DNA of 64,000 nucleotides from NCBI RefSeq assembly GCF_964355755.1, contig NC_092673.1, positions 19,347,001-19,411,000 on the forward strand. Direction: 5' to 3'. The stretch comes from Antedon mediterranea (lineage: Eukaryota; Echinodermata; Crinoidea; Comatulida; Antedonidae). Below, piece after piece: positions 4,127 to 58,242 of the stretch (the stretch's first letter is position 1; every line of letters starts with the position of its first letter). Under the pieces are notes generated by a model. The model did not search any database, had not been told where the DNA came from, and saw only the letters and a list, made by a program, of their open reading frames with translations. The position numbers and the translations under genes were made by a program.

Positions 4127-4130
4127 TTAA
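4127..4130. repeat. TTAA target-site duplication (left)
   Basis: TTAA directly precedes the left terminus AGTGCTAGTGCCACA. It is matched by TTAA at 11168-11171 right after the inverted terminus. Confidence 0.85.
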
Positions 4131-4305
4131 AGTGCTAGTGCCACACTTTCGACAAATACGACATTTACTATTATCAGTATCAAGAATAATATATGTAGAT
4201 ACTGTGTTAAATTGAGTTTCAATAATAAATTGTTATATATATGAAAAAAAAAGCAATATGTGTGTCGTTATTTGGTCACGAAATGTTACCTTTCGACATT
4301 TGTAT

Positions 4306-4369
4306 GTGACGTCACAGCCAGAACACCGACGATCGCGAGGAGGAACTAACCTGCATCTTGCGCCTTATA
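4306..4369 (+). promoter_or_regulatory. putative promoter of the P2X7-domain gene: CRE and TATA-like box
   Basis: A palindromic TGACGTCA (4307-4314, a CREB/ATF site) lies about 100 bp upstream of the ATG at 4413. It is followed by a CpG-containing stretch and a TATA-like CTTATAACA near 4360. A second TGACGTCA sits at the opposite end of the transposon beside the transposase start, so the two genes may share control. Confidence 0.45.
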
Positions 4370-4412
4370 ACACACCCCGCGGCGATCACAACAAGCTTAC
4401 TGAATATTTGTT

Positions 4413-5460
4413 ATGGATTCCGAAAGCGATTTAGAAAGTGTTTCATCAGATAGACCTAGTAGTAGTAGTTCATCATCAAGTGATGAGGAAAATGGTACTG
4501 GCCTTATAATACCATATAATTTCGAACCACGTTTTGAGGAACATGAATTACAAGACATTGATGAAGAAGCCCAAGGTGAAGATGTTGACATGATGGCTGC
4601 ACGCCTGGATAATTTAGAATGGTAGGTGTTCCCCTTGTGGTTGTTGTAGTGAAGCGTCTGCTTGATTGGGCTAGGCCTAATTAATCAATCGAAGCTAGAG
4701 CTACCTCAGTGTTTCTAAATTCTAAATATACAATCGGTTTTTTTTTTTCAAATTTTGTGAGATGCCATACGTTAATATAAAGTCCCCATCGTAATTTGTT
4801 TGATGATTATTAGATGGGTCGGATTTGGGACGGTGGTTTAATAATAGGCTACTCCTTGGGCTTGGGTTTGGTTATAATAATAGATGGACTAGGCCTAAAG
4901 TATTAATATTAATATTCTGGTCATAGTTCAAATGGGCATTTGAATTTCACTTGCTTGAGTGACTGCTGATATGATCAACTAATTATAATCATAATAATTA
5001 GTTTTATAATGACTAAATACATGTTTTCATCTTGTTCAGGTGTTCCTGTGAACATTGCCAAATCATGGGCTCAGGGGAAGAGTGCATCTGCTGCAAGGAG
5101 TGCGAAAACACAAGTGCTAAACTTGAAGACAATGTCAATCTGTTCAACAATGATGCTCCATTCTCCTGCATCACAAATCATCCAGGTTTCAAGTCTGTTG
5201 CTCTTGACCCTTGGGTGCTGGAAGTAGCATGGCTTTCGTATAAGCAACACTATGATAAGAAAGTTATCTATAACGGACCAAAAAACAAAAAGTACCGTCA
5301 CATATCGTACAGACAGTATGCCCGATGGATACATGGATATGTCGGAAAAAATATCCGTATAGTGCTTCCGTCTTGTGTTGTCTCTTGCATAAGAGCACAT
5401 TTCCCACCACCTGGAGATGACCCGGTGTTTACAGGATTTAAATTACCTGACCTAAATTAA
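4413..5460 (+). CDS. P2X7 intracellular (ballast) domain protein, 2 exons, transposon-borne
   Basis: Exon 1 is 4413-4621 and exon 2 is 5040-5460. The donor GTAGGT and acceptor TTGTTCAG join in phase 2 to complete a Trp codon, giving a 209-residue protein. Residues 1-69 are acidic and Ser-rich with a PYNFEP motif. Residues 70-209 match the C-terminal cytosolic domain of vertebrate P2X7 receptors: a WCSCEHC / CICCKEC cysteine cluster (zinc-coordinating in P2X7), NHPGF, YRQYARW, and IRIVLPSCVV near the end. No P2X channel core or membrane segment is present, so this is the free-standing form. A poly(A) signal AATAAA follows at 5528-5533. The reading frame is intact, unlike the convergent transposase in the same element. 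Its role in the transposon is unknown; DNA or RNA binding is possible but unproven. Confidence 0.88.
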
Positions 5461-6103
5461 AACAGCCATAGCAGCATTTTAATTTTCTTATACTATTTAG
5501 TATTAGTTTAGTAATTTTTGGAAATTAAATAAAGTAATAATTTATACAATTTGTAACTCATTTTGATTTTATTGCTTCTCTCATTCATATACATCTCCAA
5601 TACATTGTTATTGGGGAAAAAATGAAATAGTCTGAAAATACAGTACATTGTGAATATTTCAACAATTTTATTATGTCTACAATAATATGCTGTGTTCAAT
5701 TCATTTATATGATTAATAAACATGGTGTCAAGTTATTACTGGTTTTTAAACCGGCTTGTATGTTGGGCAACTGCAGCACTTTTTTCAGGTCTTTCAAATG
5801 CTGCGCACAATGATGGTGGTATGGTCTCTGTAAATGCATCTAGATTTGGTTCCATAACAATCTCAAGAAGACTCTTGAATAACTCATCAACATAATTATA
5901 TGTACATTCTGTTAAAAGTTTTTTAACAATGTAACCCCCTTTCTTGTACTTAGGAAATGATATTACGTATTGCTTTTCTCCAGCCTTATTTACCATTTGT
6001 TCTCTGGTACTGTTCTCATTATAGTGAAGAGCAGCTATGAAAAGTCGACTCTTCATTCCACTATATGAAAAGTGGAACATTTTAGGAGCGAAATGATTAA
6101 TAA

Positions 6104-8391
6104 TAGACCAGTCGGATCTGGAGGCAGGTGTCACTTTTCTGCAGAATTTTCCAAACCAACTTTTTCTAGTGCATTTTTTGACGTAGATTACGAATCTGGT
6201 TGTTGATCGGACTAACGTGGGGGCTTTTTAAAGATATAAACGTTTAAAATCTTGATTTTTGAGAGCCGAAATTAATCAAAATAAAACAAATTTAGACAAT
6301 AGAGGGCGCACTTTCTACATAATTATGAGTAAATTGGATTAAAAAAGACTTCGTTGCTGTTAATTTTATTCACGTAAATGTGAAAATAATTTATAAATCT
6401 GATCGGTTTTATATGCTGAAATTGTTTTAGTAATACACTGTGTAGTATAAAGTTAGTTAGAACTTTTCATTTTCGCGTTTTCAGTGATCAAAAATGATAT
6501 TGTCTAGGCCCGAATATGAATGCTTCCAGCGTACGACGTATGTAAACAAAGGACGTTTAAACCGCGATGACCGCATATAAAGTTCGCTCAAGTGAATAGT
6601 GGGTAGGCTTTTACTAGCCTAGCGTATTGTGACCGTATGCATGAAACATCTTTCTCTAGCTTATTTTGCATGCAGCGCTAGCTTTACATAAACATGTGTA
6701 CTACTGTTTTTAAATTTTTTCCCCCGATTTTTAGGTGGTGTAAGGGCCTAGAACTTATATTATTATTACTGACAGGCTTCTAGAGTAGGCTACTACTATA
6801 CTACTAGGCCTAGTACTGGTGTAGTAACTAGCTGGCATAATAATAGCGTAGGTGTAGATGTATTATGGTGTCGTGTGTGTAGTCTTACAGCTAAAACATT
6901 TATTTTTGTATACATAAATCTAATAAATGCTGTGTACTACTACCCGTATATTCAGCTGATTATAATATAACAATACATTCAGCAACCCTATCAACCAACG
7001 ATTTCTCACAGGTGACATCATTGTTCATAATTAGAGGTGCTATTTATCATGAATGTTATGTGCGAGAGTATACCATTTCCAGCCATCTAGAGGTGTCATT
7101 TAACCAAATTTGCTTCGCCCCTCCAGATTTAGGATGGCTTTTAGGTAAGGGTGGAATTAAACGACATTAAACTCATTACAAACGTATCAGATTAACATAA
7201 TTCGTTTTTGCTGTAGCATACGTCGATACACAGTACATAACGTAACCGTCAGTAAACTTCGCCTGGAAAGTAATACTACGACACATTTTGGTCCCTGGAT
7301 GGAATATGATATCACGCGTTTGGACACAACGTTGAACGATTCGTACAAAGGGATACCGCCAGACAAGTGCGTACCTATTGTTTAATAGTTGGATAGCTGG
7401 CAATAATGAATGCATAATAGCCCTCCGACGTACTCGCGGTCAATGGAACGTCGCGGTTTTCTAGGCGCTGAGGCTACGAAGTGAACGCCAACGATTTTTA
7501 CAGTATTCCCCGACTCGACAAAAAGTACCTGTGTTCCCAGATATGGGATAGGCTCCCCGACGAGGGGATAGAGCCCATGCGGATACACAGTTGATGATCT
7601 TAACCTGGATGTTTTACTATTTTCATGAGATTTAAAACATATTTTTTCTTAGAATATGCCAATTGCGCATTCTTTTGACATCATACTTTACTAACTTATG
7701 ACGTCATAGGTACGTTATATGGTAATTTAAATATTAATTGGAAAGTTTAATACCACATTTATATAGCGGCTATTCTGAATTTATGCTAATTAACCTTTTT
7801 GATGTCTGACCGTATCATGTTCATTTCAACAGGAAAATGTTAGAAAATTGTTTTCCTGCGGTTTCTACATTTTTTTTAGCATAGGATAATGTCATTTAAG
7901 CAGTTATAACATAATATATGACGTCACAACTACCTTATGACGTCATAGTTACGTCATATGCTAATTTAAATATGCTAGTTTGAAAGTTTAATGTCACATT
8001 TATATTTACTCGTAATGCACTTAGGTGGTCTAAAACCAACCGTTGAGGAGATATGGGAACTTCAAATGGTAAATGGCGGCCATTTTGAATTTATGCCAAT
8101 TAACCCACTTTCCGGTGTCCGATTTCGATAAATTTTGGATATGATGTTTATTTGGACTATATCAACTAGACAACACATTTCTGTTGCATTTAACATATCT
8201 AAACGATTTCCTCTTCATAAAATGACTTATTTGACCTAATTTGACCTTTGACCCTTCATATCTCAAAAACGCCCCCTCCCCGTCGCGATCAACATTCATA
8301 TTCGTATTCTACAGCCAAAATTACCTCAGAAAAAGTACATGAAGTAAATTCTGCAAAAAGTGACACCTACACCTCAAATACGACTGGTCTA
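6104..8391. mobile_element. nested DNA transposon with TAA duplication (PIF/Harbinger-like TSD)
   Basis: The termini are inverted: TAGACCAGTCG at 6104-6114 and CGACTGGTCTA at 8381-8391, extending imperfectly to about 47 bp (both arms include a GGTGTCACTTTT-like stretch). TAA flanks both sides (6101-6103, 8392-8394). Removing the element plus one TAA rejoins the Kolobok transposase frame at HSL-INHF, which confirms the boundaries. A 3 bp TWA duplication fits PIF/Harbinger, but no nuclease is recognisable. Two overlapping minus-strand frames (7176-7588) are unidentified; sequence related to them recurs inverted at about 16640-16860. Confidence 0.8.
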
Positions 8392-9044
8392 TAAGGCTAT
8401 GGTACCCTTCCACTGATGACGTTTGCCCATGAGGTGAAGAATTGCGAATGTCCTTCACCAACATTTTGGTTTCAACAAATTTTTGTAAGGCATCACAAGC
8501 TTCAGTATCAGCAGTCAACCACTTTGTTAACCGTTGGTCTGAAGGAGACATTACCGGATGGGCACATTCCGTATATGGTTCAGGATGTCCAGTATGAAGA
8601 TTTTGTACATGTCTTACCACAGACTTCCACTTTGCTTCAATGATATCTTTTTCATCAATGTTGGTGGACATTACACACCAGTAATAATGGTTAGAAATAG
8701 ATTTTTGCCAATTACCTAAAAGGTTACACGATTTTTTTGTTGATATGGCCTTGATCTTTTTCTTAATACTTTTTGCAATGTGCCAGCAGTCAAAATAATG
8801 CTTAATGTCTGGAAAATTATCCCTTAAATATTTTTGTAGCTGTCTATGTCTATCGGAAACAATTGTACTTATATTTACTTTGAAATCTTTAAAGACATCC
8901 AATGTTTTTTGTAGACCCTTAAGTTCCATATGATAAGATGATTTAACATCACTACTCTGAACTAATTCAACATTCAAAATCTTATTTTCGGTCAAGTCAA
9001 CTGATGTGTATGAACCATATTTTGCACTGTGGCCCATACTGTCA

Positions 9045-9088
9045 CAGCGTCCATCTACTCCAATAGCAGCGTCCATCTACTCCAATAG
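9045..9088. repeat. 22 bp perfect tandem duplication in the transposase
   Basis: A 22 bp unit beginning CAGCGTCCATC occurs twice back to back. Because 22 is not a multiple of three it shifts the frame within the catalytic VDGRC region, which is why this motif is readable in two different frames. Confidence 0.9.
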
Positions 9089-10998
9089 AAATATCCTTGC
9101 CCTGTAATTCAGCAAAGTGCTTATCCCTTTTAGAAAACCAATTATTCCTTACAACTCTGTGTAAGAAATTTTGTTGGTGACGGAAAAAAGTACGTTTACT
9201 AATGGCGCTCACATTTATACTTTTTAGCGCTCTTAAAAATTGTGTGGGTGTTGAGCCAGAAAAAAGAATAGCCCCACTTAGTAGAATGTTACCCATTGGG
9301 GTACCTCTAGCTTCTGGCTGACTTTTCCACTCGCGGTTAGTGTGGCAACATAAGCATCTTATGTTTGCAATAAGCATGCTTCCCTTGTTACGACAACATA
9401 CTTGAACTTTACTGGAAAAACAGGAAAGGCATATAGAAAGTAGCATCAGTAGGTGATTGTGAAAAACAATGTATTTTGGCTGTCTATGTGCATCCCCATT
9501 AAATCCTTTCATCTCATCATCTTCCATCTCTGTATCCTCACCATCTGAAACCGATACATCCTCTTCCGGTCGATAATCTGAATCGCTATCATCTTCTGTC
9601 GACTCATCAAAATCTTCATCATCTTCATCAGACGATTGTTCTTTGTATGTTGGTTTGGCTTTTTTGGGTGCCACGACTTTAGCTTTGCTCATTTTTCTTC
9701 GCCGAACACGTTTTCTTTGCTTTCGTGTCTGTGTGCCTCTGGACACCATAAGAGGCTTATCGCATACACTTGCGAGCTCCTGTTCATCCTCTTCCTCATC
9801 CTCTGTTCCAGTAATAAGCTCCCTGATCACTCCCGCCTTTTCTCTTTTAACAAATGCTGACCTGTTGGAATGAATATTAATACTATTAATAATAAATATC
9901 AGACAAACCTAAACATTTTTTCTTTTATTTATTGAATCTATTACACTAACCTCTGTGCTGTACACTCTTTGGCCACCTGACCACCATCGTCGGATGTCTC
10001 CCTCACAACATGTATTGTTGGTACCGCTGTTTTGGCATTCAGTAAAAAAGCCTAAAAGTAGTGAGGAAACCGTTGTCTAATTAATATTAAGGGCAAAATA
10101 ACGTAAGCAATATAATTATAATATAGTTGTTAGTTCCCACTTACACCGACAGGACATTCTCCTACTGAGCATAACAGTGTAGGCATTGACTAACCTCCAT
10201 CATGTTTGTACAGCATTCAGTAGTACTAATTAGGCCTGGCTAGGCTAGCCCTTATCCCATTATTATTAATGTAATAAGCCAAATACATAACAACTAGGTT
10301 AGGCCTAGTTGAGTTATCTGTGTGGTGTAGGCAAAACTGTTATTACTATTACTTATTAATTATGTTAAGTTTATTTAAAGATAAACCAACATAAAGTAAA
10401 TACTATACATATATATCAGGCGGAGCAACTGTACTGTATGTATGTACAGTAGTTTTAATGTTACTGCAAATTATGTGCCGGCCCGCCTAGAAGCTAGGCT
10501 TGGCCCAGCGGGCCCAGCAGGCCTAACAATAGCGACGGCGAACGTATTTTATTCAGTTTTTGTTGAAGGTAAAATATTAAAAGTAAATTCATCTAATTAA
10601 CAAATACTTACTTTGTAGCTAGACCAGCTTTGAATTGACCCATGTTTGTAAATGAATCGTCTGAAAAATGCTTAAAACAGAGCACTGATCGAGCTGTGGG
10701 TTTCCACTTATCGCGTTTTGTACGTACAAATCTTGTCCATTGCCTGGCGATGAAACTGTCCTTTGGCCACCGAAACAATAAGTTATTTTCATGATCACAA
10801 TTCGCAGCAACACAGCGAGAAGGCATATTGATTTATTATAATAGATAAATAAAAAAGTAGCTGACAATAATAATAGTTGAAAATAACAATTAGTACCAGT
10901 AGAAAGCAGTATACAGTATATATTATTAGTAGTAAACCAGCGTCTCATGCATGCACGTGTGTTGTTTTAAAAGGCGGAAGTAGAATGTCTTCTGCCTG

Positions 10999-11017
10999 TG
11001 ACGTCACGCTTATAAAG
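10999..11017 (-). promoter_or_regulatory. putative transposase promoter: CRE and TATA-like box
   Basis: TGACGTCA at 10999-11006 and TTATAAAG at 11010-11017 lie about 170-190 bp upstream of the THAP exon start. The arrangement mirrors the CRE/TATA-like pair at the other transposon end. Confidence 0.4.
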
Positions 11018-11171
11018 TACGAGGGCATATTAACGTTCCTAATTAAGAGGTGATTACGGCCATACCGTTAAAAGTAGGTCAATGCAAATTTCGGTCAAGA
11101 TTTATAGACATTAAGTCTACCCAAAAAATCATTAACATCTTAATTTAAAGTCTGTGGCACTAGCACTTTAA

Positions 11172-12973: not shown

Positions 12974-14490
12974 GGTATTGTACTACCTTACTTTATGATC
13001 CATTTATTAATAGACTAAAACGCACTGCTTCCCCAGGGCTGTTAGTCAGGGTATTTGTGTGGGGTATTGTACTACCTTACTTTATGATCCATTTATTAAT
13101 AGACTAAAATGCACTGCTTCCCCAGGGCTGTTAGTCAGGGTATTTGTGTGGGGTATTGTACTACCTTACTTTATGATCCATTTATTAATAGCCTAAATGC
13201 ACTGCTTCCCCAGGGCTGTTAGTCAGGGTATTTGTGTGGGGTATTGTACTACCTTACTTTATGATCCATTTATTAATAGACTAAAATGTACTGCTTCCCC
13301 AGGGCTGTTAGTCAGGGTATTTGTGTGTGGTATTGTACTACCTTACTTTATGATCCATTTATTAATAGACTAAAATGTACTGCTTCCCCAGGGCTGTTAG
13401 TTAGGGTATTTGTGTGGGGTATTGTTAACCTTACTTTATGATCCATTTATTAATAGACTAAAATGCACTGCTTCCCCAGGGCTGTTAGTCAGGGTATTTG
13501 TGTGGGGTATTGTACTACCTTACTTTATGATCCATTTATTAATAGACTAAAATGCACTGCTTCCCCAGGGCTGTTAGTCAGGGTATTTGTGTGGGGTATT
13601 GTACTACCTTACTTTATGATCCATTTATTAATAGACTAAAATGCACTGCTTCCCCAGGGCTGTTAGTCAGGGTATTTGTGTGGGGTATTGTACTACCTTA
13701 CTTTATGATCCATTTATTAATAGACTAAAATGCACTGCTTCCCCAGGGCTGTTAGTCAGGGTATTTGTGTGGGGTATTGTACTACCTTACTTTATGATCC
13801 ATTTATTAATAGACTAAAATGCACTGCTTCCCCAGGGCTGTTAGTCAGGGTATTTGTGTGGGGTATTGTAATACCTTACTTTATGATCCATTTATTAATA
13901 GACTAAAATGCACTGCTTCCCCAGGGCTGTTAGTCAGGGTATTTGTGTGGGGTATTGTAATACCTTACTTTATGATCCATTTATTAATAGACTAAAATGC
14001 ACTGCTTCCCCAGGGCTGTTAGTCAGGGTATTTGTGTGGGGTATTGTACTACCTTACTTTATGATCCATTTATTAATAGACTAAAATGCACTGCTTCCCA
14101 GGGCTGTTAGTCAGGGTATTTGTGTGGGGTATTGTACTACCTTACTTTATGATCCATTTATTAATAGACTAAAATGCACTGCTTCCCCAGGGCTGTTAGT
14201 CAGGGTATTTGTGTGGGGTATTGTAATACCTTACTTTATGATCCATTTATTAATAGACTAAAACGCACTGCTTCCCCAGGGCTGTTAGTTAGGGTATTTG
14301 TGTGGGGTATTGTACTACCTTACTTTATGATCCATTTATTAATAGACTAAAATGCACTGCTTCCCCATGGCTGTTAGTCATGGGTATTTGTGTGGGGTAT
14401 TGTAATACCTTACTTTATGATCCATTTATTAATAGACTAAAATGCACTGCTTCCCCAGGGCTGTTAGTCAGGGTACTTGTGTGGGGTATG
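12974..14490. repeat. minisatellite, 88-89 bp unit, about 17 copies
   Basis: Units containing GGTATTGTACTACCTTAC, 'tttattaatagactaaaa' and 'gcttccccagggctgttagt' repeat head to tail with very few differences (occasional single-base changes and 1-bp indels). The period is not a multiple of three, so the 66-residue frame at 14302-14502 is an artefact of the repeat. Confidence 0.95.
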
Positions 14491-18021: not shown

Positions 18022-18869
18022 CACAGGAGTCATCTTCATTCAGTAACACCAGCATACAGGTCATCTACATGCAGTAACACCAGCATACAGATCATCTTCA
18101 TTCAGTAACACCAGCATACAGGTCATCTACATGCAGTAACACCAGCATACAGATCATCTTCATTCAGTAACACCAGCATACAGGTCATCTTCATTCAGTA
18201 ACGCCAACATACAGGTCATCTTCATTCAGTAACACCAGCATACAGGTCATCTTCATTCATTAACACCAGCATACAGGTCATCTACATTCAGTAACACCAG
18301 CATACAGGTCATCTTCATTCAGTAACACCAGCATACAGGTCATCTTCATTCAGTAACACCAGCATACAGGTCATCTTCATTCATTAACACCGGCATACAG
18401 GTCATCTTCATTCAGTAACACCGGCATACAGGTCATCTTCATTCAGTAACACCAGCATACAGATCATCTTCATTCAGTAATGCCAGCATACAGGTCATCT
18501 TCATTCAGTAATGCCAGCATACAGATCATCTTCATTCAGTAACGCCAGCATACAGGTCATCTTCATTCATTAACACCGGCATACAGGTCATCTTCATTCA
18601 GTAACACCGGCATACAGGTCATCTTCATTCAGTAACACCAGCATACAGATCATCTTCATTCAGTAAACACCAGCATACAGATCATCTTCATTCAGTAATG
18701 CCAGCATACAGGTTATCTTCATTCAGTAACACCAGCATACAGGTCATCTTCATTCAGTAACACCAGCATACAGATCATCTTCATTCAGTAACACCAGCAT
18801 ACAGGTCATCTTCATTCAGTAACACCAGCATACAGATCATCTTCATTCAGTAATGCCAGCATACAGGTG
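18022..18869. repeat. minisatellite, 31 bp unit, about 27 copies
   Basis: The unit resembles CAGGTCATCTTCATTCAGT followed by 'aacaccagcata', with a few recurring variants (tcatctacatgc, atgccagcata, ttaacaccgg). It ends about 155 bp before the proposed start codon of the Roco gene, so it may sit in or next to the promoter or 5' UTR. Confidence 0.95.
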
Positions 18870-19373: not shown

Positions 19374-22300
19374 GTATAATATTATCAAAGAAGAAATTTA
19401 ATTAAAGTTTAAAATTATAGAGATTGTAATTTTCTTTATTATTTATTATAACATTTTTTTATATAATGAATTACAATTATTTTTCAATATCACACTAATG
19501 ATGTTGGTAAGACCTGCATGCACTGATTAACCACATTAGGCTAAAAATAATAATATAAATACACACTGATGATGGGGATAACCTGCATGTACTGATTAAC
19601 CACATTAGGCTAAAAATAATAATATAAATACACACTGATGATGGAGGTATAACCTGCATGTACTGATTAACCACATTAGGCTAAAAATAATAATATAAAT
19701 ACACACTGATGATGTTGGTATAACCTGCATGTACTGATTAACCACATTAGGCTATAAATAATAATATAAATACACACTGATGATAGGGGTATAACCTGCA
19801 TGCACTGATTAACCACATTAGGCTAAAAATAATAATATAAATACACACTGATGATGGAGGTATAACCTGCATGTACTGATTAACCACTTTAGGCTAAAAA
19901 TAATAATATAAATACACACTGATGATGGGGGTATAACCTGCATGTACTGATTAACAACATTAGGCTAAAAATAATAATATAGATACACACTGATGATGGG
20001 GGTATAACCTGCATGTACTGATTAACAACATTAGGCTAAAAATAATAATATAAACACACACTGATGATGGGGGTATAACCTGCATGTACTGATTAACAAC
20101 ATTAGGCTAAAAATAATAATATAAATACACACTGATGATGGAGGTATAACCTGCATATACTGATTAACCACATTAGGCTAAAAATAATAATATAAATACA
20201 CACTGATGATGGAGGTATAACCTGCATGCACTGATTAACAACATTAGGCTAAAAATAATAATATAAATACACACTGATGATGGGGGTATAACCTGCATGC
20301 ACTGATTAACCACATTAGGCAAAAATAATAATATAAATACACACTGATGGGTATGGCAAGCCTCAGCTGTCTGGAGTATTCAAAATATTATATTATTATA
20401 TCAGAGGTCCCAAATTGGGAAAGTCCATTCGCAGGAGATTTTGTCGTGAACCACATTCAATTCGTCGGGGCGTCGAAAGTCAACGCGCAGGGAATCGAAA
20501 ATCAACACGCGTGTCGTTTACGTCTCTTAATTAATTAACTAAATATGTTACATATACAGTATATACAATATTTACACATAAGTTTGCTTAATTTTTACAT
20601 AGGTTTATCCATCAGTATTTTTACATTCTTATTTTTTTTATGGACACATCCTCAGTACAAAGAATTAAAAAAATATATACTGTATTTTAACTAAAATTCA
20701 GTATATAAAATAATTTAACTTAATTACATAGGCACAGGCCTAGCCTAGGGCTTCTACTAGGCCCTAGCTAGCTACCATTTTAACCCCCCCCCCCCCAAAA
20801 AAAAAATAATAATAAGAAATAACTATTCCGAATCCGTCTTATGCTACATTACGCGAGTTAACATATTATTTCAGATGAAAAACATTGAGTTTTATATTGT
20901 TTTATCCATACGTAATTACACTGGCATTAAAGATATAACATTAAAATGTAGGCCGTTTATGAGCTATTTCGCCGATTTCTTATCGCTGGGAAATTCCCCA
21001 CCATCGACATCGATCGAGGAGTAGGCCTAGGCTAGAATAGAGGCCTAGCGTGCATGCCGGAACGGGTGGATTATTGCTATATAAATAACAAGTTTGAACA
21101 AAAGAGCTTACAACAATCTTAGGTAAATTTTTATTAAACGTAGGCCTACTTGCTTGGCGAATCCATATGCTCGTATTATCGGATCGTACAGTAAAACCAA
21201 ATAAAACACCGCCTCAACAACCTCGTGCGATGTGCGATCTGTTGTTCTTTGCAGCGGATCAACATTGGTAGAGTCCATTAATTATGAGGGTGTTTAAAAA
21301 TGTAATAACTATTAAAAACGTGTCTCAATCACTGTGTAATCAAAGCGTTTATTTAGTTAAAACTTGGATCCTCCCAAAATTGATAATCGCGTATTCCGGT
21401 GACCACGTGATTGATTCACGGTTGGTTGCACGCTCTTTTTTTTCTACGTCCGGCGTGTAGTAACCGTGCATGTTTATATTATTGTTACGGTTTAACAAAG
21501 GCAGTGCATACAAATAAAAATACAATAATAGACCACAGAGACTGCATGAATAGACATTGTTTCAACATCCTGCCTCACTTTTGTCTAGTTATTTATTGAT
21601 TATTGTTGACCTGGGCTGAGCCTGGGTGTAACCGTAAATCAATTTGGCCAAAAATATGGGGAAATTTGAAAATGCGGTAAAAAAAATCAAAATGCGGTAG
21701 AAAACGTTGAGATAGCGGTAGCGCGGTAGATGGGTTCTAAAAGCGGTAGACTACCGCGAGTAGCGGTAGACTTGGGACCCCTGTTTTCACGCTACATCAC
21801 AAGAGAGGACTCAATCAGATATAAAGCAAGCAGCAATTTTAGGACTATAGTTTATAGGTCCCAGCTGCTGGACCCAAAAAACATCTGGGAAAAGTGTCTA
21901 TGAGGGTTCACGGTTGAACGATTTTGGATTCTTGCCCTTTGATTGGTTGACTTCAATGCAAATGGTTTAACCTAAATTTGTTATCGTATCTAGTTTAACT
22001 TAATTATGATATTAGTTTCATTGGGTGTTAAAAATCAGTACCAAAAGTATGTACCAACTTTCTCTACCATTGAGTAAATATTCTAGAAGTTGCACTTAAT
22101 TTACTGAAATTTCTCATTACGCAAATTTATATATAAATTCATTAAACTGCTTATTGGCCTCATATTTTTAATATCTGAACATTTGTTTGTACAATTTTAT
22201 GAAAGTATTTTTTCTCATTACGCAAATTTATATATTAATTAAGTAATAGGCTAACAAATCTCTAGATCTGATCCATGGTAAGATAATCTATTAAACCCAA

Positions 22301-25300
22301 TTTCACATAATGTCTGTTGTCGGTATTATACACCAGCAAATTTGCAAAAGAAGGTAATGTACAGGGATTTGCTAGTGTAATAGGCTAACATTATATAGAT
22401 ATGCTGTGGTAAACCATTCTATTTTGTTCTACTCATTTATTAATAATGATAATTATGATTATTTATCACAATATTTAGTAGCAATTGTTGTTGTTTGTAT
22501 TGAAAAAAAAAACAAACAATTTTACATAATGTCTGTTGTCAGTATTTATAAACTTTATTATGATTCCTTTCCAGAATGGTGACACTCCATTACATTCATA
22601 TCTGGGGAGCGGATATAGATCTACCTTAGAAATAGTGACTTGTCTCATTCAGCATGGGACACCAGTAGCATTGCAAAATAAGGTAATGTACAGGGATTTG
22701 CTAGTGTAATAGGCTAACATTATATAGATATGCTGTGGTAAACCATTCTATTTTGTTCTACTCATTTATTAATAATGATAATTATGATTATTTACCACAA
22801 TATTTAGCAGCAATTGTTGTTGTTTGTATTGACAAAAAACAAACAATTTCACATAATGTCTGTTGTCAGTATTTATAAACTTTATTATGATTCCTTTCCA
22901 GGATGGTGACACTCCATTACATTCATATCTGTGGAGTAGTATGTATCCACCTACCTTAGAAATAGTGACGTGTCTCATTCAGCATGGGGCACCAGCAACA
23001 TTGCAAAATAAGGTAATGTACAGGGATTTGCTAGTGTAATAGGCTAACATTATATAGATATGCTGTGGTAAACCATTCTATTTTGTTCTACTCATTTATT
23101 AATAATGATAATTATGATTATTTACCACAATATTTAGCAGCAATTGTTGTTGTTTGTATTGAAAAAAAAAACAAACAATTTCACATAATGTCTGTTGTCA
23201 GTATTTATAAACTTCATTGTGATTCCTTTCCAGTCTGGTGACACTCCATTACATTCATATCTGAGGAGTGGATGTACTGCACCTACCTTAGAAATAGTGA
23301 CGTGTCTCATTCAGCATGGGGCACCAGTAGCATTGCAAAATGAGGTAATGTACAGGGATTTGCTAGTGTAGTAGGCTAACATTCTATAGCAGGCCTCGAA
23401 TTTTACCGCGGCCAGTGCCGTCGGTGCCCTCCCAGTTGGCCTCAATGCCCTCGAAAATTAATAGCACCCACGGCCACTACTGGCCTGCCCTTTTTTTGCG
23501 TTGGCCGTGAGTGCCCTTCCCGAGTTTTACCACAATAAAAACCACTAAAGTAGATAGAAAATAATGTCAAGAATATCGGACGAGGCGCAAAACTATCGCC
23601 TGTCTTCGTTGCAAGGGGATTTCCCTAAACGCATTTAGAGAAAACATCGAACATATTTATATAACCAAAACAATATCGTCCCGGCCGCCGTGCGTGGTAA
23701 ATAATGGTATAGATAGTACATTAAAATACAGGGGTGTACACTTTTAATAATAAAGCTAAAAACGTTCCTCGATCGGAGGTCACTGAAAGTATTAAAGTCG
23801 CACCACCCCCGCCTCAATAATCGAGCTAGCCGCCTTCGTTGAAAAAAAAATTACACGCACTCCTTGTCCTAGCCAGCCTATCCTCCCGCCGCCGATCCGA
23901 TCAACAAACACACGCGATTCAATACATTGGGAAAACAATTCCATTTGACGCACACGCACCCTCTGATAAGAAATTTCACACGACGTCGTCGTACGTGTGA
24001 GAGTACGAAGGATCGGTCGTTGGAAAAACAATTCCTTTTGACGTACACGCACCCGCTGATATGAAAATACCATGTGCGTTCCTGCATGGTGTAGTCCATT
24101 CCATTATACGTGTAAAATTAGGGGTGTCAACTTTTAGTACTAAAGTTAAACCGGTACCTCAACCCGAAGATCGTTGGAAGTATATTGTATTTATATTTTA
24201 TCGCACCCACCTCAATAATCCAGCCGACAGATCATCGAAAAATCTTGTTTAACGACGTCGTACACTAAATTAACAAACGCGTTTTTACCGAACTCAAGGA
24301 AATGGTATAGTCCACAATACACGTGCAGAAGGCTAAACGAGAGAGAGGGGTTGGCGTCCGTCCGTCCGTGTTTTGAATTCTTATGAATATGGATTATACT
24401 AACAAAAAAGCTTCAGAAATCGAAACTCGGAAAATAACAATAATTTATATTCTACAACATAATGTCATTGGCTTGATTTTTACCGTGGTTAACACTCTGT
24501 GTATGAATAGTTGTAGTTAAGGCCTACAAACAAATTGTTTTTGTAACCTGTGTTCTCCGTCCGCTACGCCTTTAGTGCTGCTAAGTGCTTGCTGTTGTTA
24601 GGGTCTTTACCCGTTGGGCCTGGCTTCACATGCCTTTTTTTGATCGCATTGTTTGAAACTAAACGAAACAACTGTGAACGCTAAACATCGTACCTTAATA
24701 ATTATTATTTATATGGATCGTAAATACACGTAATATTTATATGAAATACAAAAAGATGTAGACAGTCCTCTCCTACTACTACTACGCAATCTGATGAATA
24801 GGGGAAATACCCCCAAAAATGTTTGCGGGTAGAATTTTTTTTTTTGAAAAAAATTCCACCCGGGCGCTCAACCGGAAACAAGCTATTTTTAAATTTTGGC
24901 CTATTTATTAAAATATTTTTTAATTTTGGCCTTGGTGCCCCTTCGATTTAAAACAAATGGCCTTGGTGCCCTCCCATTTGGCCTTGGTGCCCCTCAAATC
25001 AATGAAAACCGGAGGCCAAATGGCCTTGCCCCTAAAATCCCCAAATTCGAGGCCTGCTATAGATATGCTGTGGTAAACCATTCTATTTTGTTCTACTCAT
25101 TTATTAATAATGATAATTATGATTATTTACCACAATATTTAGCAGCAATTGTTGTTGTTTGTATTGACAAAAAACAAACAATTTCACATAATGTCTGTTG
25201 TCAGTATTTATAAACTTTATTGTGATTCCTTTCCAGAATGGTAACACTCCATTACATTCATATCTGGAGAGAAAATATCCACATACCTTAGCAATAGTGA

Positions 25301-28300
25301 CTTGTCTCATTCAGCATGGGGCACCAGCAACATTGCAAAATAAGGTAATGTACAGGGATTTGCTAGTGTAATAGGCTAACATTCTATAGATATGATGTGG
25401 TAAACCATTCTATTTTGTTCTACTCATTTATTAATAATGATAATTATGATTATTTACCACAATATTTAGTAGCAATTGTTGTTGTTTGTATTGACAAAAA
25501 ACAAACAATTTCACATAATGTCTGTTGTCAGTATTTATAAACTTCATTATGATTCCTTTCCAGTATGGTGAAACTCTATTACATATATATCTGTGGGCTG
25601 GATATACTGCACCTACCTTAGAAATAGTGACGTGTCTCATTCAGCATGGGACACCATTAGCATTGCAAAAGAAGGTAATGTACAGGGATTTGCTAGTGTA
25701 ATAGGCAACATTCTATAGATATGCTGTGGTAAACCATTCTATTTTGTTCTACTCATTTATTAATAATGATAATTATGATTATTTACCACAATATTTAGTA
25801 GCAATTGTTGTTGTTTGTATTGTAAAAAAACAAACAATTTCACATAATGTCTGTTGTCAGTATTTATAAACTTCATTATGATTCCTTTCCAGTCTGGTGA
25901 CACTCTATTACATTTATATCTGGGGAGTGGATATAGACCTACCTTAGAAATAGTGACTTGTCTCATTCAGCATGGGACACCATTAGCATTGCAAAATAAG
26001 GTAATGTACAGGGATTTGCTACTGTAATAGGCAACATTCTATAGATATGCTGTGGTAAACCATTCTATTTTGTTCTACTCATTTATTAATAATGATAATT
26101 ATGATTATTTACCACAATATTTAGTAGCAATTGTTGTTGTTTGTATTGACAAAAAACAAACAATTTCACATAATGTCTGTTGTCAGTATTTATAAACTTT
26201 ATTATGATTCCTTTCCAGGATGGTAACACTCTATTACATTCATATCTGGGGAGTGGATATAGACCTACCTTAGAAATAGTGACTTGTCTCATTCAGCATG
26301 GGACACCATTAGCATTGCAAAATAAGGTATTGTACAGGGATTTGCTAGTGTAATAGGCTAACATTGTATAGATATGCCGTGGTAAACCATTCTATTTTGT
26401 TCTACTCATTTATTAATAATGATAATTATGATTATTTACCACAATATTTAGCAGCAATTGTTGTTGTTTGTATTGACAAAAAAACAAACAATTTCACATA
26501 ATGTCTGTTGTCAGTATTTATAAACTTCATTATGATTCCTTTCCAGGATGGTGACACTCCATTACATTCATATCTGAGTAGTGTATATGCACCTACCTTA
26601 GAAATAGTGACGTGTCTCATTCAGCATGAGGCACCATTAGCATTGCAAAATAAGGTAATGTACAGGGATTTGCTAGTGTAATAGGCTAACATTGTATAGA
26701 TATGATGTGGTAAACCATTCTATTTTGTTCTACTCATTTATTAATAATGATAATTATGATTATTTACCACAATATTTAGCAGCAATTGTTGTTGTTTGTA
26801 TTGACAAAAAACAAACAATTTTACATAATGTCTGTTGTCAGTATTTATAAACTCCATTTTGATTCCTTTCCAGAATGGTGACACTCTATTACATTCATAT
26901 CTGAGGAGTGGATACCCTACCTTAGAAATAGTGACGTGTCTCATTCAGCATGGGACACCAGTAGCATTGCAAAGTAAGGTAATGTACAGGGATTTGCTAG
27001 TGTAATAGGCTAACATTCTATTCTATTTTGTTCTGGTTTACCACATTATTTAGCAGTAATTTTTACTGTATTGTCTCATATTATGGCATATCTGCAGCAT
27101 TGCAAAATAGGGTAATGTAGGCTTACAAAGAATTGTCAGGACAATTTCACATTTTATTGTTATCAGTATTTATAAACTTCAACTTCAGTATCAATTAGCC
27201 TCCATATTAATCAATAGTATTACTACCTCAAAGAGTAGTATTATTTAATCAGACTTACAGATATAGAATTCTCAAGTGTTTGATTTTTTTCACATTTTTC
27301 TCTTTTTACACATAGCACATTCTAACAAGTTTGTTTTGATTTAGATATTCATTTATAAGTCAACTATAATTGTAATGTGTTGTTGTTGTTTTAATATTTC
27401 ATTTGTATCTGGATAGTATCCAAATATTATTTTCTTTGAAAGTTTATAGTAAAACTATTTGTTGTTTTATATTATGGCTCAAACATTTTAACACATCTAC
27501 CTACTGTTCCAAAGTAAACTTTTATTCAATTTATCTCTCTCTCTCTCTCTCTCCTCCATCTTTCAATGTTGAAGGCGGTAGACTATAAACAGCAGCACTC
27601 AAGTTTTGGTTTGGATACAGGAGTTATAGGTGGCGCACTGTACAAGTTGATGTCATTTATTAGCAAATAGTAATTTCTATTCACGTCCTAATTTACAACC
27701 AATGTTAAAAAATAGTAAATCTATGTGTTATCACATGATGCTCTTTCATCCAATCTCTAGATGGTAAATGTTTGAGCCATGACATAATACTGTATGTATG
27801 TGATGCATAATTAAAGTGTGTTATATTGTATATCAATAATTTCTCAAAACTACTAATAACTAAACCCATTTTTTTAATAGGATGGAAATACACCTGTCTC
27901 TCTTTTAGAAAGTAACAGGTGGATAAAGGAGCATAGTAAAACTGAAATTTTAAACTTCTTAGAAGGTAAGTGAAGTTTTAATTATTGAAATTTTAGGATC
28001 AACTAGTTTCATTGCAAACGATAACAATTTGACTTCTTGTTCCAAGTGAAGAAGAATGTCCAGATAAAGAAAATTAACATTTATGATATATCATTCACAG
28101 GTTTATTATAGATTAAATAATTCAGTGGGATAGTAGTATACATGGAAGTTGTGATATGTTGCAAGATGTAAATTATTTTGCTATTAATACGATAAAAATA
28201 ACACAAAAACGCAAACTTTAAAATTCCTTTGAAATAAAAATATTAAATAAATCATTTTTCAAATCAAATCAATCTCTTTATTCAATACATCAAAACAGTA

Positions 28301-43300: not shown

Positions 43301-45537
43301 TAAAACAAATAACAATTCTAAGTTTGTGCATTACTGGAGATGCAACGCACTCTCTGGTATTAAAAATGTTGTGCAACATACACCATTGTAAATACCCTCA
43401 AGTTTGCCGCATCTCCTCTAACGCACAAATTTAGACTTGTGCGTTATTTGTATAATAAATTATTTGTCTTTGTTAATATCAATGAATGGGTACCATGATT
43501 TATCCAGTGCATACATGTTCTAGAAATGGATATGTGTATATGGCACGTCATTGTGAGAGTCTAACAAATACGCAGAGTATTTATATTATAATATCATGGA
43601 CTATAAAGCTCTGTATGTTGTGAAACCTCTGTAAGCGCTGATCATACAGTAGAAAATTGAGGAAAAAAACTAAACCCAAACCTAAGTATGTGATATGCCC
43701 TTGCAATGTGTGACTTGGCCCGTCATCCCCGACTCGGTGCTTCCTACCCTAGTAAAGACAATATAACTATAACAAGATATCAAATTTATATTCATGAAAG
43801 TGTTTTGGTATTGCGACTCGTAAACAAGCTTAAATTTGGTAAATCACCAGGTCAAGATGGTATAACTTCTACTATGCTCAAGATAACTGCTACATTTATT
43901 GCTGAGCCGCTTTAAAAATTGTTTAATTTATCCCTCTCAACCGGTAACATTCCCAATGACTGGTTGAAGGCCAACGTGATTCCTATTCATAAATGAAATT
44001 GGTATAGACAATTTTAAGTAGCAAATTTATGTTAGTGGCGGTTTTCATCGCTGTTGGTTTTGATCGAATAAAAAATAAAATGATGAAGGAAACAACAGAA
44101 TGTGATGATGATCTAAAACACTTCAATAGTTTATAAAATACATTGCTGCTTTTATTATAACAATTGAACATATGATATTGTGCTGTAGTGCTGGCAATAT
44201 AGAATTTGAATGGCATCCATTGAATTCATTTCATTTCATTTCATTCATTTTTTTCATCAAAAAAAAATAATTATAAAACATGTAAAGATAAAATGCATAA
44301 AAGATGAAAAGGATCAACAACAAAAAGCTAAAAGCTTATACAGGGTTGAAGACCTAAAATAACAACTATAAAACAGCTAATAATATAATAGGAAATATAC
44401 AATATTAAAATATATATATAAAGTAACATTATTTCATTATTGTATGTTTTATTTTTGTGGATTTTTACTTTTATGTTAAACCAAGACAACGAAAAGGAAT
44501 AAAATTACCTTCGTGACGTTTCGCCGACAATCTGTCAGCTGCTTCAAACTAATGCCTGGGTTGGAATGGTCTGGTTTTTTGTAAGTGACGCTGAACAGCG
44601 CCACCAGCCGTCTGGTTGGTATTGACGGTAGAGCGTCTCCGCTGGCCCCCTCCTGCTTCAACTTTTTCCAGCAAACTATCATATGTATGTGGGAGGTCAT
44701 ACCCACCAATGTCTCTGTTGATATTCTATACTGATGATTAAGTAAAAATTTATTTTGATTTTTGAGTGGGTACAATAATGATCACTGTCAAATGAATGTC
44801 CTGTCATTTTATTTGCAGACAACAAGACAATTGCAGGATCGAAAACTTGCGACAATTTCCAAGACCTAAAAGCTGGTCTCAGTGGTTGCTTTGATGGCGA
44901 AAGATATCGTTGGCTAAGGTTCCTACTATTTGATAAGTTGGATGTCGGTGAAATTACAAATCAAGATTTCAATGGACATGACTTACTCAATGTACTTGAA
45001 GCTAAAGGTTTAATCTTATCAACCAATGTTAATTTGCTGTTGGAGATTACAAAGTTATCAGATATCAAATATGCCAAAGATCTTGTATCAAAGTATATGA
45101 GAGACAACGTTCAGTTTAGAAATACTGATAAAACCAAGTTGTCGTTTTACAGAAAGCGGCTGTTTAAAGCCCTGAAACAAGTTGACCCACGTGCATTACG
45201 TAATGTTATATCTTTCTACAAGTTAAGAAGATATAGCTTCTCCAATGTTTGGGATGCAGTTCTCTATCTGGAGATTCAGCAATTATTAGCAGATGATCCA
45301 GACAAAATAAATCGGTTTGCAGATCGTCTTGGCACAATAGCAAGTAACATTCTACTTGGTATGCATTTCTACTTTATATTATATTAAGTTTTTTGTATTG
45401 TTATTGAATCATTCATTTTTTAAACAGTTTACGTAATTGTAATTTGATTCAAATTAATAATATCTGGTTTACTTTATTTATTAAAGTTGATTATTTACAT
45501 TAAATGATTATTTTTAGGCGATAGTGGGAAGAAATGA
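19025..45537 (+). CDS. ANK-ROC-COR-DED protein (Roco-family GTPase), ~30 exons
   Basis: Exons: 19025-19032, 19277-19373, nine ankyrin exons (22575-22682, 22902-23012, 23234-23344, 25237-25344, 25564-25674, 25893-26000, 26219-26326, 26547-26654, 26874-26978), 27881-27965, 30341-30433, 32424-32583, 32880-32965, 33297-33361, 34571-34646, 36341-36498, 36915-37004, 37199-37378, 37614-37865, 38573-38767, 39218-39412, 39648-39950, 40049-40120, 40489-40708, 41518-41553, 41997-42038, 44819-45358, 45518-45537. All junctions are GT-AG and every phase matches, giving 3951 nt (1316 aa). Domains: cap 1-35, ankyrin 36-390, ROC about 450-720 (P-loop GQEGVGKT 457-464, DHGGQ 590-594), COR 777-1007, Cys-rich 1056-1062, basic linker, DED-like about 1140-1205. 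Roco proteins are GTP-regulated switches; the ankyrin/death-fold pairing is reminiscent of DAPK1 but there is no kinase. An innate-immune or cell-death signalling role is inferred. Weakest junctions are the first mini-exon and the donors GTTAAT (37379) and GTCAAT (41554). Confidence 0.85.
19491..20349. repeat. intronic minisatellite, ~71 bp unit, ~12 copies
   Basis: Units 'cacactgatgatggnggtataacctgcatg' plus 'actgattaaccacattaggctaaaaataataatataaata' repeat head to tail in the intron before the first ankyrin exon. Confidence 0.95.
20402..21783. mobile_element. hAT-like non-autonomous element (1.38 kb)
   Basis: The termini CAGAGGTCCCAA (20402-20413) and TTGGGACCCCTG (21772-21783) are inverted with one mismatch, in the CAGNGGT style of hAT transposons. 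Near the right end GCGGTAG motifs recur as subterminal repeats. An 8 bp target duplication is not visible, and no transposase frame is present. Confidence 0.6.
22020..22140 (-). repeat. Helitron 5'-end fragment
   Basis: This short stretch ('aaaaatcagtaccaaaagta', 'gagtaaatattctagaa', 'caaatttatatata') resembles the terminal region of the two longer Helitron copies at 30482-31777 and 61407-62697. A second partial 'attacgcaaatttatatatta' follows near 22215. Confidence 0.5.
22330..22358 (+). pseudogene. remnant of an extra ankyrin exon
   Basis: The sequence ends 'caccagcaaatttgcaaaagaag' followed by the array-type donor GTAATGTACAGGG, so it is the 3' end of a tenth ankyrin exon. The acceptor and the first roughly 80 bases of the exon are deleted relative to its neighbours, so it should not be spliced in. 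Confidence 0.75.
22575..26978 (+). repeat. tandem array of nine ankyrin exon/intron modules (~328 bp each)
   Basis: Nine exons of 105-111 nt, all phase 0-0, each encode one ankyrin repeat of 35-37 residues with the frame [NDSY]G[DNE]TxLHSYL, a variable loop, then TLEIVTCLIQHG and ALQNK. Exon starts are spaced 326-332 bp apart, once the 1.67 kb insertion in intron 3 is removed. Introns are near identical, sharing GTAATGTACAGGG at the 5' end and GATTCCTTTCCAG at the 3' end. Differences between exons concentrate in the codons between the two ankyrin helices (GSGYRS, WSSMYPP, RSGCTAP, ERKYPH, WAGYTAP, SSVYAP, RSGYP), with codon-sized indels there. Because modules are symmetric in phase, gain or loss of any module keeps the frame. 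Confidence 0.92.
23390..25056. mobile_element. hAT-like element inserted in an ankyrin-array intron (1.67 kb)
   Basis: Perfect 14 bp inverted termini CAGGCCTCGAATTT (23390-23403) and AAATTCGAGGCCTG (25043-25056) are flanked by CTATAG on both sides (23384-23389, 25057-25062). Removing the element restores the array intron 'attctatagatatg'. Subterminal GGCCTTGGTGCCC-type motifs occur near both ends. The termini look hAT-like but the visible duplication is 6 bp rather than 8, so the class is uncertain. No transposase is present. Confidence 0.85.
27004..27180 (+). pseudogene. decayed last module of the ankyrin array
   Basis: After the ninth exon the array continues in degraded form: 'ttgtctcatattatggcatatctgcagcattgcaaaataggg' followed by 'gtaatgtag', then array intron words. 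The reading frame and acceptor are lost. With the truncated module at the 5' end, this shows the array once extended further on both sides. Confidence 0.65.
27533..27556. repeat. (CT)n microsatellite
   Basis: A run of about 11 CT dinucleotides lies in the intron after the ankyrin array. Confidence 0.9.
28261..29570. repeat. intronic repeats with a ~135 bp direct duplication
   Basis: The stretch 'aggcaaacaatttacgatag...' at about 28541-28670 recurs at about 29428-29560, about 887 bp apart. Between them is an AT-rich region dense in short CTATTAG/TCTATC words. The 28261-28420 part ('caatctctttattcaata') looks like a LINE 3' end in antisense. Element boundaries are unclear. Confidence 0.55.
30482..31777 (+). 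mobile_element. non-autonomous Helitron copy 1 (1.3 kb)
   Basis: It starts TCTATATATAAATTTACG after an A and ends in CTAG before a T, which are the Helitron termini (5' TC, 3' CTRR, insertion between A and T, no duplication). About 5 bp before the CTAG is a strong GC hairpin, CGCGAGCGAAGCGAGCGTG. A copy with the same ends sits inverted at 61407-62697. Open frames (for example 31479-31733 minus) recur in both copies but show no Rep/helicase motifs. Confidence 0.8.
31906..32197 (-). repeat. tRNA-derived SINE (antisense)
   Basis: On the minus strand the head starts GGAGCACTGTGGCGCAG, with A box TGGCGCAGTGG (32188-32178) and B box GGTTCAAGCC (32144-32135). A body with 'ttgagcaagattctttatcc' follows. 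It lies in the intron before the ROC P-loop exon. The tail end is approximate. Confidence 0.8.
32424..37865 (+). CDS. ROC GTPase-domain exons of the Roco gene
   Basis: Eight exons encode the ROC domain. 32424-32583 gives VIGQEGVGKTCLINACLG with the phosphate-binding P-loop; 32880-32965 gives HKVTDGIAV, the switch I Thr; 36341-36498 gives FNIWDHGGQ, the switch II DxxGQ; 36915-37004 gives LYIVVFDLSVD; 37199-37378 gives ILIVGTHKGK, the G4 region; 37614-37865 gives VYFAVENS, in the G5 position. Exons 33297-33361 and 34571-34646 insert an acidic linker (PPIDDEDGIVVDD) between switch I and switch II. The G4 motif has Gly where Asp is usual (THKD), which could weaken guanine specificity. Confidence 0.88.
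33430..34361. mobile_element. MITE with ~38 bp terminal inverted repeats (0.93 kb)
   Basis: Ends TTACGCACGTATTCTTAAAC (33430 on) and the inverted partner ending GAATACGGGCGTAA (34348-34361) pair over about 38 bp with two or three mismatches; subterminal AGTCGTAGTTC motifs repeat. It lies within an intron of the ROC region. No target duplication is obvious. Confidence 0.75.
35342..35478. repeat. long near-perfect palindrome (~137 bp)
   Basis: AAATATAAGATTAGACATCC at the left pairs with GGATGTCTAATCTTATATTT at the right. Inside, 'tatatttccctcag' and 'cttcgggaaatatata' form a second stem around GCTGGCGC. It lies in an intron, so the pre-mRNA could form a strong hairpin. Confidence 0.8.
35740..36240. 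repeat. intronic minisatellite, 52-70 bp unit, ~8 copies
   Basis: Units 'cggtgtaacaatgattatgaagactgcaatgatgataatgacaacaatgatgacgact' repeat with variable numbers of AATGATGAC triplet words. The long frames on both strands here are products of the repeat. Confidence 0.9.
37915..38572. other. intron with LINE-tail-like sequence
   Basis: The part near 37920-38060 ('tttatttatttattcaattttctgccatatacaatac') resembles the antisense 3' end of a LINE. The rest is AT-rich and shows nothing. Confidence 0.35.
38573..39950 (+). CDS. COR-domain exons of the Roco gene
   Basis: Three phase-0 exons (38573-38767, 39218-39412, 39648-39950) encode about 230 residues. FLYDLGEIVY followed by VLDPMQLVEIV is the classic COR start (dimerisation and GTPase coupling in Roco proteins). 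A helical LRKLW / FEFLVALMIQLGFICE segment follows, then a beta-rich region SFFVPLRLAF, DFKGYLPDVLFPYMI, as expected for the C-terminal half of COR. Confidence 0.88.
38940..39160. repeat. interspersed repeat fragment in a COR intron
   Basis: The stretch with 'attagcacaccgggagacgatcccctactcttttcgaatagtgtaccaagttctttaacgtgc' is more GC-rich than its surroundings and has the look of a dispersed repeat. A short internal duplication ('accaagttctttaa(c/t)gtgca') is visible. No boundaries found. Confidence 0.4.
40049..40708 (+). CDS. Cys-rich post-COR exons of the Roco gene
   Basis: Exon 40049-40120 encodes an acidic/polar linker. Exon 40489-40708 encodes YERCILCGVC...H...C, a cluster of four Cys and one His that might bind zinc, ending in phase 1. 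I do not recognise a named domain. Confidence 0.75.
40802..41185. repeat. intronic minisatellite, 88 bp unit, ~4.4 copies
   Basis: The unit 'atcagaatcattattgataatctatacattgttacaacatgctgctattagctgtgatatcttcattcctcttaccagtagtagtact' repeats almost exactly. Open frames here are artefacts. Confidence 0.95.
41518..42038 (+). CDS. two duplicated basic mini-exons of the Roco gene
   Basis: 41518-41553 encodes DETERKRRNSDE and 41997-42038 encodes DEIGKGRKRRKRDQ. Both follow TTTGCAG, are phase 1-1 and sit in duplicated sequence (shared 'gatgcaa(t/c)acaagaa(t/c)gtaggcacaac' and 'tggtgtccacttaca' upstream). The second has a KGRKRRKR run that could act as a nuclear-localisation signal. The first has a poor donor (GTCAAT) and would otherwise read to a stop at 41577, so the exons may be alternatives or the first may be terminal in some transcripts. 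Confidence 0.6.
42276..43136 (-). mobile_element. MITE copy C of a ~0.9-1.1 kb family
   Basis: Inverted ends of about 36 bp (AATATATATCACAAGAATGA near 42282 and its reverse complement near 43110-43130). The family recurs in the other orientation at about 49745-50830 and 58203-63200 (sharing 'cgcccggtaaattaag' and 'aaactatccttcgtgaaaac'). It lies in an intron of the Roco gene. Confidence 0.7.
43770..43996 (+). pseudogene. LINE reverse-transcriptase fragment
   Basis: The frame reads LKFGKSPGQDGITSTMLK, then a stop, then LFNLSLSTGNIPNDWLKANVIPIHK, then a stop. This is the conserved N-terminal block of non-LTR reverse transcriptases (K-S-P-G-D-G-I ... P ... W K A ... V I P I x K). It is truncated on both sides and carries an internal stop, so it is dead. 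Confidence 0.8.
44819..45358 (+). CDS. DED-like domain exon of the Roco gene
   Basis: A single 540 nt exon, phase 1-1, encodes 180 residues. About the first 75 (LRFLLFDKLDVGEI, HDLLNVLEAKGLI, NLLLEITKLSDIKYAKDLV) follow the six-helix death-effector pattern with the typical 'DLL..LE..G.I...N...L' core. The remaining ~100 residues are helical (LSFYRKRLFKALKQVDP, LYLEIQQLLADDPDKINRFADRLG) and unidentified; they could be a second, diverged death fold. DEDs recruit caspases or adaptors through like-like contacts, so the protein may couple GTPase switching to a death or inflammatory complex (inference). Confidence 0.75.
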
Positions 45538-57113: not shown

Positions 57114-57283
57114 TGTAACCTGGAATCGGGAATATATAGAAATAATAATACAGAAACTACGGAAACTAAGAGCAAAGTGTGTTTTATTTATCATCTCACG
57201 AGGTTTCACCACAAAAAGAGACCCGCGAATAATGACAGTATGGCACGTCAAAGGTGCATTATATATGGGGGGATAACTTAACA
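57102..57283 (-). repeat. Copia 5' LTR
   Basis: 182 bp, TG...CA ends in retroelement orientation, containing the proposed gag ATG at 57113-57111. Confidence 0.93.
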
Positions 57284-58242
57284 GCCTAGAGGACTAAACA
57301 ATTAATAAACAAAACAACTTGGCAACACGATTTCATATTTCAACAGTCTCGATCGTACATTCAGCACTGTACGTACTCGATCTTTTTCATTTTGAAACAA
57401 AATGATCATTGGTTGATTCGAAATCCATATTTACATACCGCCCGCCCCATAAAGCCAAATACGGTATGATAACCTACGTCATTCTTATTGGATGTTTGCG
57501 GTCTGCAAATCGATTTCTATACGTGTTTCACAAGTCTGTATTTTCAGACAAAAATCGCGGTCGAAATAAAAACAAATAAATAAAAATAAAAAACAATACA
57601 GACTTGGGGCAAGTCTATAAAAGTAGATGCATTCCACTGAATTTTTAACCCTCTATTATAGTTGCTCTTTTGGCGCTCCATAGAAATGAAAATATTGAAC
57701 TTCGTGTATGCGAAATTCGTGAACGGTGTGCGAGAAACAAGTCTGTAAAAATCATTAAAAAAAACAAAGAAAAAAAAAGATTTATTTGTTACTTTTTATG
57801 TGATTCTTCTTCATAAAAGTACTTATGAGGCCCAATTCTAAGGTGTGGTATTCACAATAAGTTACTTAATACATTTTGAGTCGAAAGCAAGTCGAAATAA
57901 AACAGGTGCGAAACGGAACTAGCGCCTAACCTTCTATCTAGGCCTACTAATCTAGACTAACTAATCTAGACTAGACTAGTTAGGGGTGCAATAGACGGTT
58001 GATCAGGACCACAGACGATCATGCCCAGGGGAGCCCAATAATGTTGTAAGACGATTGATTGGGACAAGAGACAATCGGGCACAAAATAAAAATATATGGT
58101 CTAAATGACTCTCACAACTCAAATCAATAAACAATATTTGTGCTACCGAAGCCATCTTGCAGAGATGACAAACAGTCGTGACCAGCTGAACGTAAAAACG
58201 GAGAATATATATATCACAAGAATGAGTAATCTGCGATTTTTG

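Follow-up and report, generated by a model that had tools for sequence, protein, structure and literature searches.

Why does a gene for the ballast domain of the P2X7 receptor lie inside a DNA transposon of a crinoid? The question is raised by a 64-kb stretch of the Antedon mediterranea genome (the window), which contains a complete Kolobok-like element at positions 4131-11167 with two convergent genes, one encoding a transposase on the minus strand and one encoding a ballast-type protein, KolX, on the plus strand. We conclude, at a probability of about 85% for the reading as a whole, including a putative role for KolX and a mode of mobilisation, that KolX belongs to a Kol0-type Kolobok DNA transposon of this species as its regular second gene. 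The link between the P2X7 tail and Kolobok has been in print since 2022, and the window copy is a further example. Kojima & Bao 2022 (PMC9587614) describe KolX as resembling the P2X7 ballast domain, report an origin of P2X7 by fusion with KolX, and assign a transposase plus KolX to Kol0, a Kolobok lineage with Kolobok-1_XT as its representative.

The element ends exactly where a sequence-only reading of this DNA had placed its ends, at a perfect 19-nt inverted pair (4127-4145 and 11153-11171) made up of TTAA and the 15-bp terminal repeat AGTGCTAGTGCCACA. The termini of piggyBac elements are CC...GG with TTAA; those of the window element are AG...CT, and a piggyBac assignment was rejected. Such 5'-RR and YY-3' termini follow the rule that separates Kolobok from piggyBac in PMC9587614. 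TTAA duplications, which also mark the superfamily, flank the window element and likewise the loci L034-38, L042-44 and five of L045-50, described below. The transposase begins with a THAP domain (35.6 bits against a cut-off of 23.9), and its core open reading frame (ORF; 8321-9076) has MULE and ISL3-transposase matches that both fall under their cut-offs. Kolobok transposases use DDE/RNase H chemistry. The GVDGRCD, SDRH, DCWH and VEGYHS motifs were chosen by eye and then located in the core ORF, where DCWH (8791-8780) supplies the C/DxxH motif of Kolobok between the second D and the E of what we take to be the catalytic residues. The first part of the core was aligned with that of four other Antedon families, two of which end before DxxH. 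With Kol0 the window element thus has in common its TTAA duplications, 5'-RR...YY-3' ends, a DDE transposase with DxxH, and a KolX with ballast similarity. It differs in its crinoid host, and its membership was set by description, through KolX content. No paper combining Kolobok and crinoid was returned by our literature search.

KolX is a protein of 209 amino acids (aa) encoded by two exons, and a single GT..AG pair among those tried yields one open frame. A hidden Markov model search for the P2X7 C-terminal family, as suggested by the sequence-only reading, gave P2RX7_C (PF20478) as the sole Pfam match, at 60 bits (cut-off 23.5). Repeat pair, open frame and Pfam matches together bear out that reading's description of an intact two-exon P2X7-type gene between perfect Kolobok ends with TTAA, convergent to the transposase. 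Among PDB sequences searched with phmmer (E <=0.001), the window KolX matched P2X7 only (3 distinct sequences, best E 6e-5). Of the database proteins, P0001, named as Antedon mediterranea, is the closest; it differs by one residue (N to Y near residue 107) and stands in for the window protein: all seven zinc cysteines are present in it (7/7), and the P2X7 rows rank cleanly in a Foldseek search with its model. KolX is predicted to adopt the P2X7 ballast fold and has its seven zinc cysteines. It is like the P2X7 ballast (PF20478; rat 6u9v, human 9e3m) in predicted fold, zinc cysteines and residues R546/H547/Y550/R578, and differs from it in having neither the P2X channel domain nor R574 and K583. 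A Pfam search of the window KolX protein found no channel domain (PF00864), and the 12 PF00864 matches in the genome all fall on C3, where they make up two regions; the P2RX7_C match closest to them is ~1.5 Mb off. Identity as a P2X7 receptor was rejected for the window gene because it has P2RX7_C alone.

A single capture of a host P2X7-domain gene by the window's Kolobok copy would fit the intron of KolX, its own strand, and the near-identical gene labelled by NCBI as an uncharacterized Antedon protein. The other copies of the family make such a capture very improbable. In the 354-Mb Antedon mediterranea genome, the search for the terminus plus TTAA around P2X7-domain genes that the sequence-only reading had proposed gave 22 matches to the end 19-mer with <=1 mismatch, 20 of them exact, and 0 for a reversed control pattern. 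They form 10 convergent pairs and 2 singles; five pairs span 4732-4754 bp, two span 7045 bp, and the others 3881, 7904 and 23107 bp. The genome has at least 70 PF20478 matches, counted exon by exon with some genes counted twice. On the basis of score (44.8 bits for 7, 43.1 for 1) and frame (147 aa, open), eight were assigned to the window's family; all 8 lie inside end pairs, and 8/10 pairs contain one. We also observed, within C4:12522563-12530199, a weak P2RX7_C match (29.1 bits) and, ~7.6 kb away from it, an unpaired end 19-mer, which together are perhaps an older copy of the family whose left end has diverged.

Among the copies of this family, the reading of the transposase covers the window copy and a part of copy L028. 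In the window KolX is intact and the transposase is broken, by two changes that go beyond the sequence-only reading: a 2288-bp nested insertion with a TAA duplication (6104-8391), by which L028 is uninterrupted, and a frame-shifting 22-bp tandem duplication (9045-9088), which L028 also has. Copy L029, ~262 kb from the window on the same contig, has an end pair of the window's length (7045 bp) and is identical to it over the 2816 bp compared, including 839 bp of nested sequence, and its flank differs from that of the window. The same copy between different flanks indicates movement of a copy with a broken transposase. The move, in either direction, would most simply have been made with transposase from other copies. 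L028 and L029 have 538 bp of flank in common at 100%, which indicates that they are not separate insertions but arose by segmental duplication or are duplicates in the assembly. The nested element itself has imperfect inverted ends, and its 3-bp TAA duplication resembles that of PIF/Harbinger; the one ORF tested in it (7161-7385) has no Pfam match.

In order to survey other families, the P2RX7_C search was reduced to 66 places (three second-exon matches merged, window copy excluded), and the 20 best-scoring were taken at 10 kb each. Downstream of KolX, and on the strand opposite to it, 18/20 loci match a piece of the window transposase; L033 and L041 had no such match in their 10-kb stretches. 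As a control, the same queries matched only the element itself in the 64-kb window. About six families make up the 20 loci (L031/32/40, L033, L034-38, L039, L041-44 and L045-50). L034-38 is a recent burst: five 5.3-kb copies, 99.83-99.98% identical to L034, with TTAA, different flanks, an open 180-aa KolX frame and a long terminal repeat that carries a single mismatch. The repeat of L042-44 measures 10 bp. L045-50 are 3.1-kb elements with a 26-bp repeat in five of six (L048 is rearranged), in which only a C-terminal transposase remnant is kept and KolX has in-frame stops. Transposase relatives (67 proteins, many unnamed) come from crinoid, ticks, nemertean, fish, priapulid, sponge and oyster, animal groups that overlap with those of the KolX relatives. 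The pairing of KolX with a transposase recurs in several divergent Kolobok families: in five more family groups of this one genome the domain occurs together with a Kolobok transposase match. This and the overlap in animal groups again argue against a one-time capture of a host gene.

Several observations weigh against KolX being an ordinary and functional second gene. L045-type KolX carries in-frame stops in 6/6 copies examined, which means that some copies can move without a functional KolX in cis. For 7/20 loci (L031, L032, L033, L039, L040, L041 and L048) the stretches examined contained no convincing pair of TTAA-flanked repeats, and two of the ten end pairs of the window's family (C5:21499827-21504558 and C5:13293424-13297304) had no P2RX7_C match in the profile search. 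The Foldseek score is modest (best E 1.0e-3; template-modelling score by query 0.32-0.39 for the P2X7 rows).

KolX as the second gene of the transposon may have been kept because it helps the element move, and would most likely be a zinc-stabilised helical adaptor acting with the transposase. It could instead be a regulator or self-defence protein, such as a transposition repressor or an anti-silencing factor, in place of a reaction cofactor. The KolX gene stands apart from that of the transposase and is not fused to it, and other Kolobok lineages have unrelated accessory proteins (nucleases, helicase) according to PMC9587614, which together suggest that the core reaction may not need KolX. 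We consider this regulatory reading possible but the less probable; a cofactor or adaptor role appears likelier than a repressor or anti-silencing one. Of the sequence-only reading's alternative, a regular second Kolobok protein with a role in transposition, the first half agrees with KolX as described in PMC9587614, and the role is our inference.

A tree of the domain was built from 40 rows, comprising 17/28 and 16/32 database proteins chosen by hand, four Antedon loci and three P2X7. Two sides part at 95/92, one with the window clade, L034, L042 and L045, the other with a 'P2X purinoceptor 7-like' clade, L039 and P2X7; because several rows are long, the tree is treated as a lead. The six Antedon rows require six changes on it, and a single Antedon clade was rejected by the approximately unbiased test (p-AU 6e-32), which indicates that the domain tree tracks element lineages and not species. 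With the gene present in other copies of the family (8/10 end pairs), this makes the single capture or chance insertion fail the test that the sequence-only reading had itself named. Constraining P2X7 to the window clade carries a cost of 14 log units, which the test does not reject (p-AU 0.073); the cost falls to 3.7 (p 0.284) when P2X7 is constrained to clade B minus L039. By phmmer, the window KolX is distant from P2X7 and L031-type KolX is closer (E 9e-18). The branch nearest P2X7 is thus probably a different one from the window KolX; the tail of P2X7 may descend from a KolX gene of another clade, and the tree gives a hint as to which clade donated it. The suggestion that fusion to P2X came about through a transposon is consistent with these data and had already been published (2022).

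The ballast domain of P2X7 binds guanosine nucleotide (PMC9859053 and PMC7016195), through residues named in the latter as R546-H547, R574, R578 and K583. Across 37 KolX rows, the zinc cysteines are conserved; R546 is kept in 36/37, H547 in 34, Y550 in 37 and R578 in 36, whereas R574 is replaced in 37/37. Replacement of K583 is seen in 36 rows, the remaining one having a gap. The window transposase has a THAP N terminus, and presumably DDE/RNase H chemistry, in common with P-element transposase. The latter requires GTP (guanosine triphosphate) according to PMC7776569. KolX might then be a guanine-nucleotide-binding partner of the THAP transposase, an in-trans counterpart of the GTP-binding insertion domain of the P element. 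The four residues mostly kept favour this idea, and the loss of R574 and K583 argues against it. The GTP site lies inside the P-element transposase and is built from a different residue set, whereas KolX is a separate Zn-Cys protein, and nucleotide binding by KolX is a proposal drawn from sequence; we regard it as doubtful. Equally speculative is a fuller version, in which KolX would be a guanine-nucleotide-responsive zinc protein acting in trans with the THAP transposase, the P2X7 site would be inherited from it, and R574 and K583 would have been added later in mammals.

Nanor and other stand-alone ZCD proteins, as covered in PMC7016195, are short and have the same C-terminal domain as KolX. 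That paper treats them as genes, one or few (<10) per species, as against the PF20478 matches counted here and the 18/20 loci with a Kolobok transposase match. It also states that ballast-domain genes have an 'ancestral synteny' throughout invertebrates, to which two unnamed markers belong, and that in Ixodes the domain is fused to a THAP-like one (printed TAHP). We hypothesize that this synteny is the two-gene layout of the transposon and that the markers are transposase pieces.

Features of the element (window coordinates)
Feature	Position	Strand	Basis
TTAA target-site duplication, left	4127..4130	.	
15-bp terminal inverted repeat AGTGCTAGTGCCACA, left	4131..4145	+	inverted-repeat pair and genome search
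KolX exon 1, Ser/Asp/Glu-rich N terminus	4413..4621	+	protein start identical in P0001
KolX exon 2, Zn-Cys / ballast domain, P2RX7_C	5040..5460	+	Pfam, phmmer, model of near-identical P0001
Transposase C-terminal part (NHFAPKM... to stop)	5736..6103	-	
TAA duplication of nested insertion, left	6101..6103	.	
Nested DNA element within transposase gene, termini TAGACCAGTCG	6104..8391	.	
TAA duplication of nested insertion, right	8392..8394	.	
Transposase DDE core (GVDGRCD, SDRH, DCWH, VEGYHS motifs)	8395..9076	-	
22-bp tandem duplication, transposase frameshift; present in copy L028 too	9045..9088	.	
Middle part of transposase, with Cys cluster and an acidic and basic stretch; no Pfam match	9042..9908	-	
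Transposase first exon, THAP domain	10608..10832	-	PF05485, 35.6 bits
15-bp terminal inverted repeat, right	11153..11167	-	
TTAA target-site duplication, right	11168..11171	.	

Elsewhere in the window, a Ty1/copia-type retrotransposon coding region occupies 53204-57293 on the minus strand, with RVT_2 divided between two ORFs (1025 and 382 aa) that overlap and differ in frame. An element-like structure of ~3 kb (58248-61277) has long inverted arms (221 nt at 98%) with more arms inside, and the arms contain 22-bp tandem repeats at both ends. Tandem arrays with units of 89, 31, 71 and ~330 bp lie at 12974-14489, 18029-18868, 19486-20349, 22342-23389 and 25057-27021. A 201-aa ORF (44782-45384) has a weak death-effector-domain match (E 0.0027), under the Pfam cut-off.

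What is new here is that six KolX lineages have been sampled in one crinoid genome, one of them a family with five near-identical copies. The pattern of kept and replaced residues in KolX sharpens the question of guanine-nucleotide binding, and a crinoid genome with multiple families allows KolX and its transposase to be compared.
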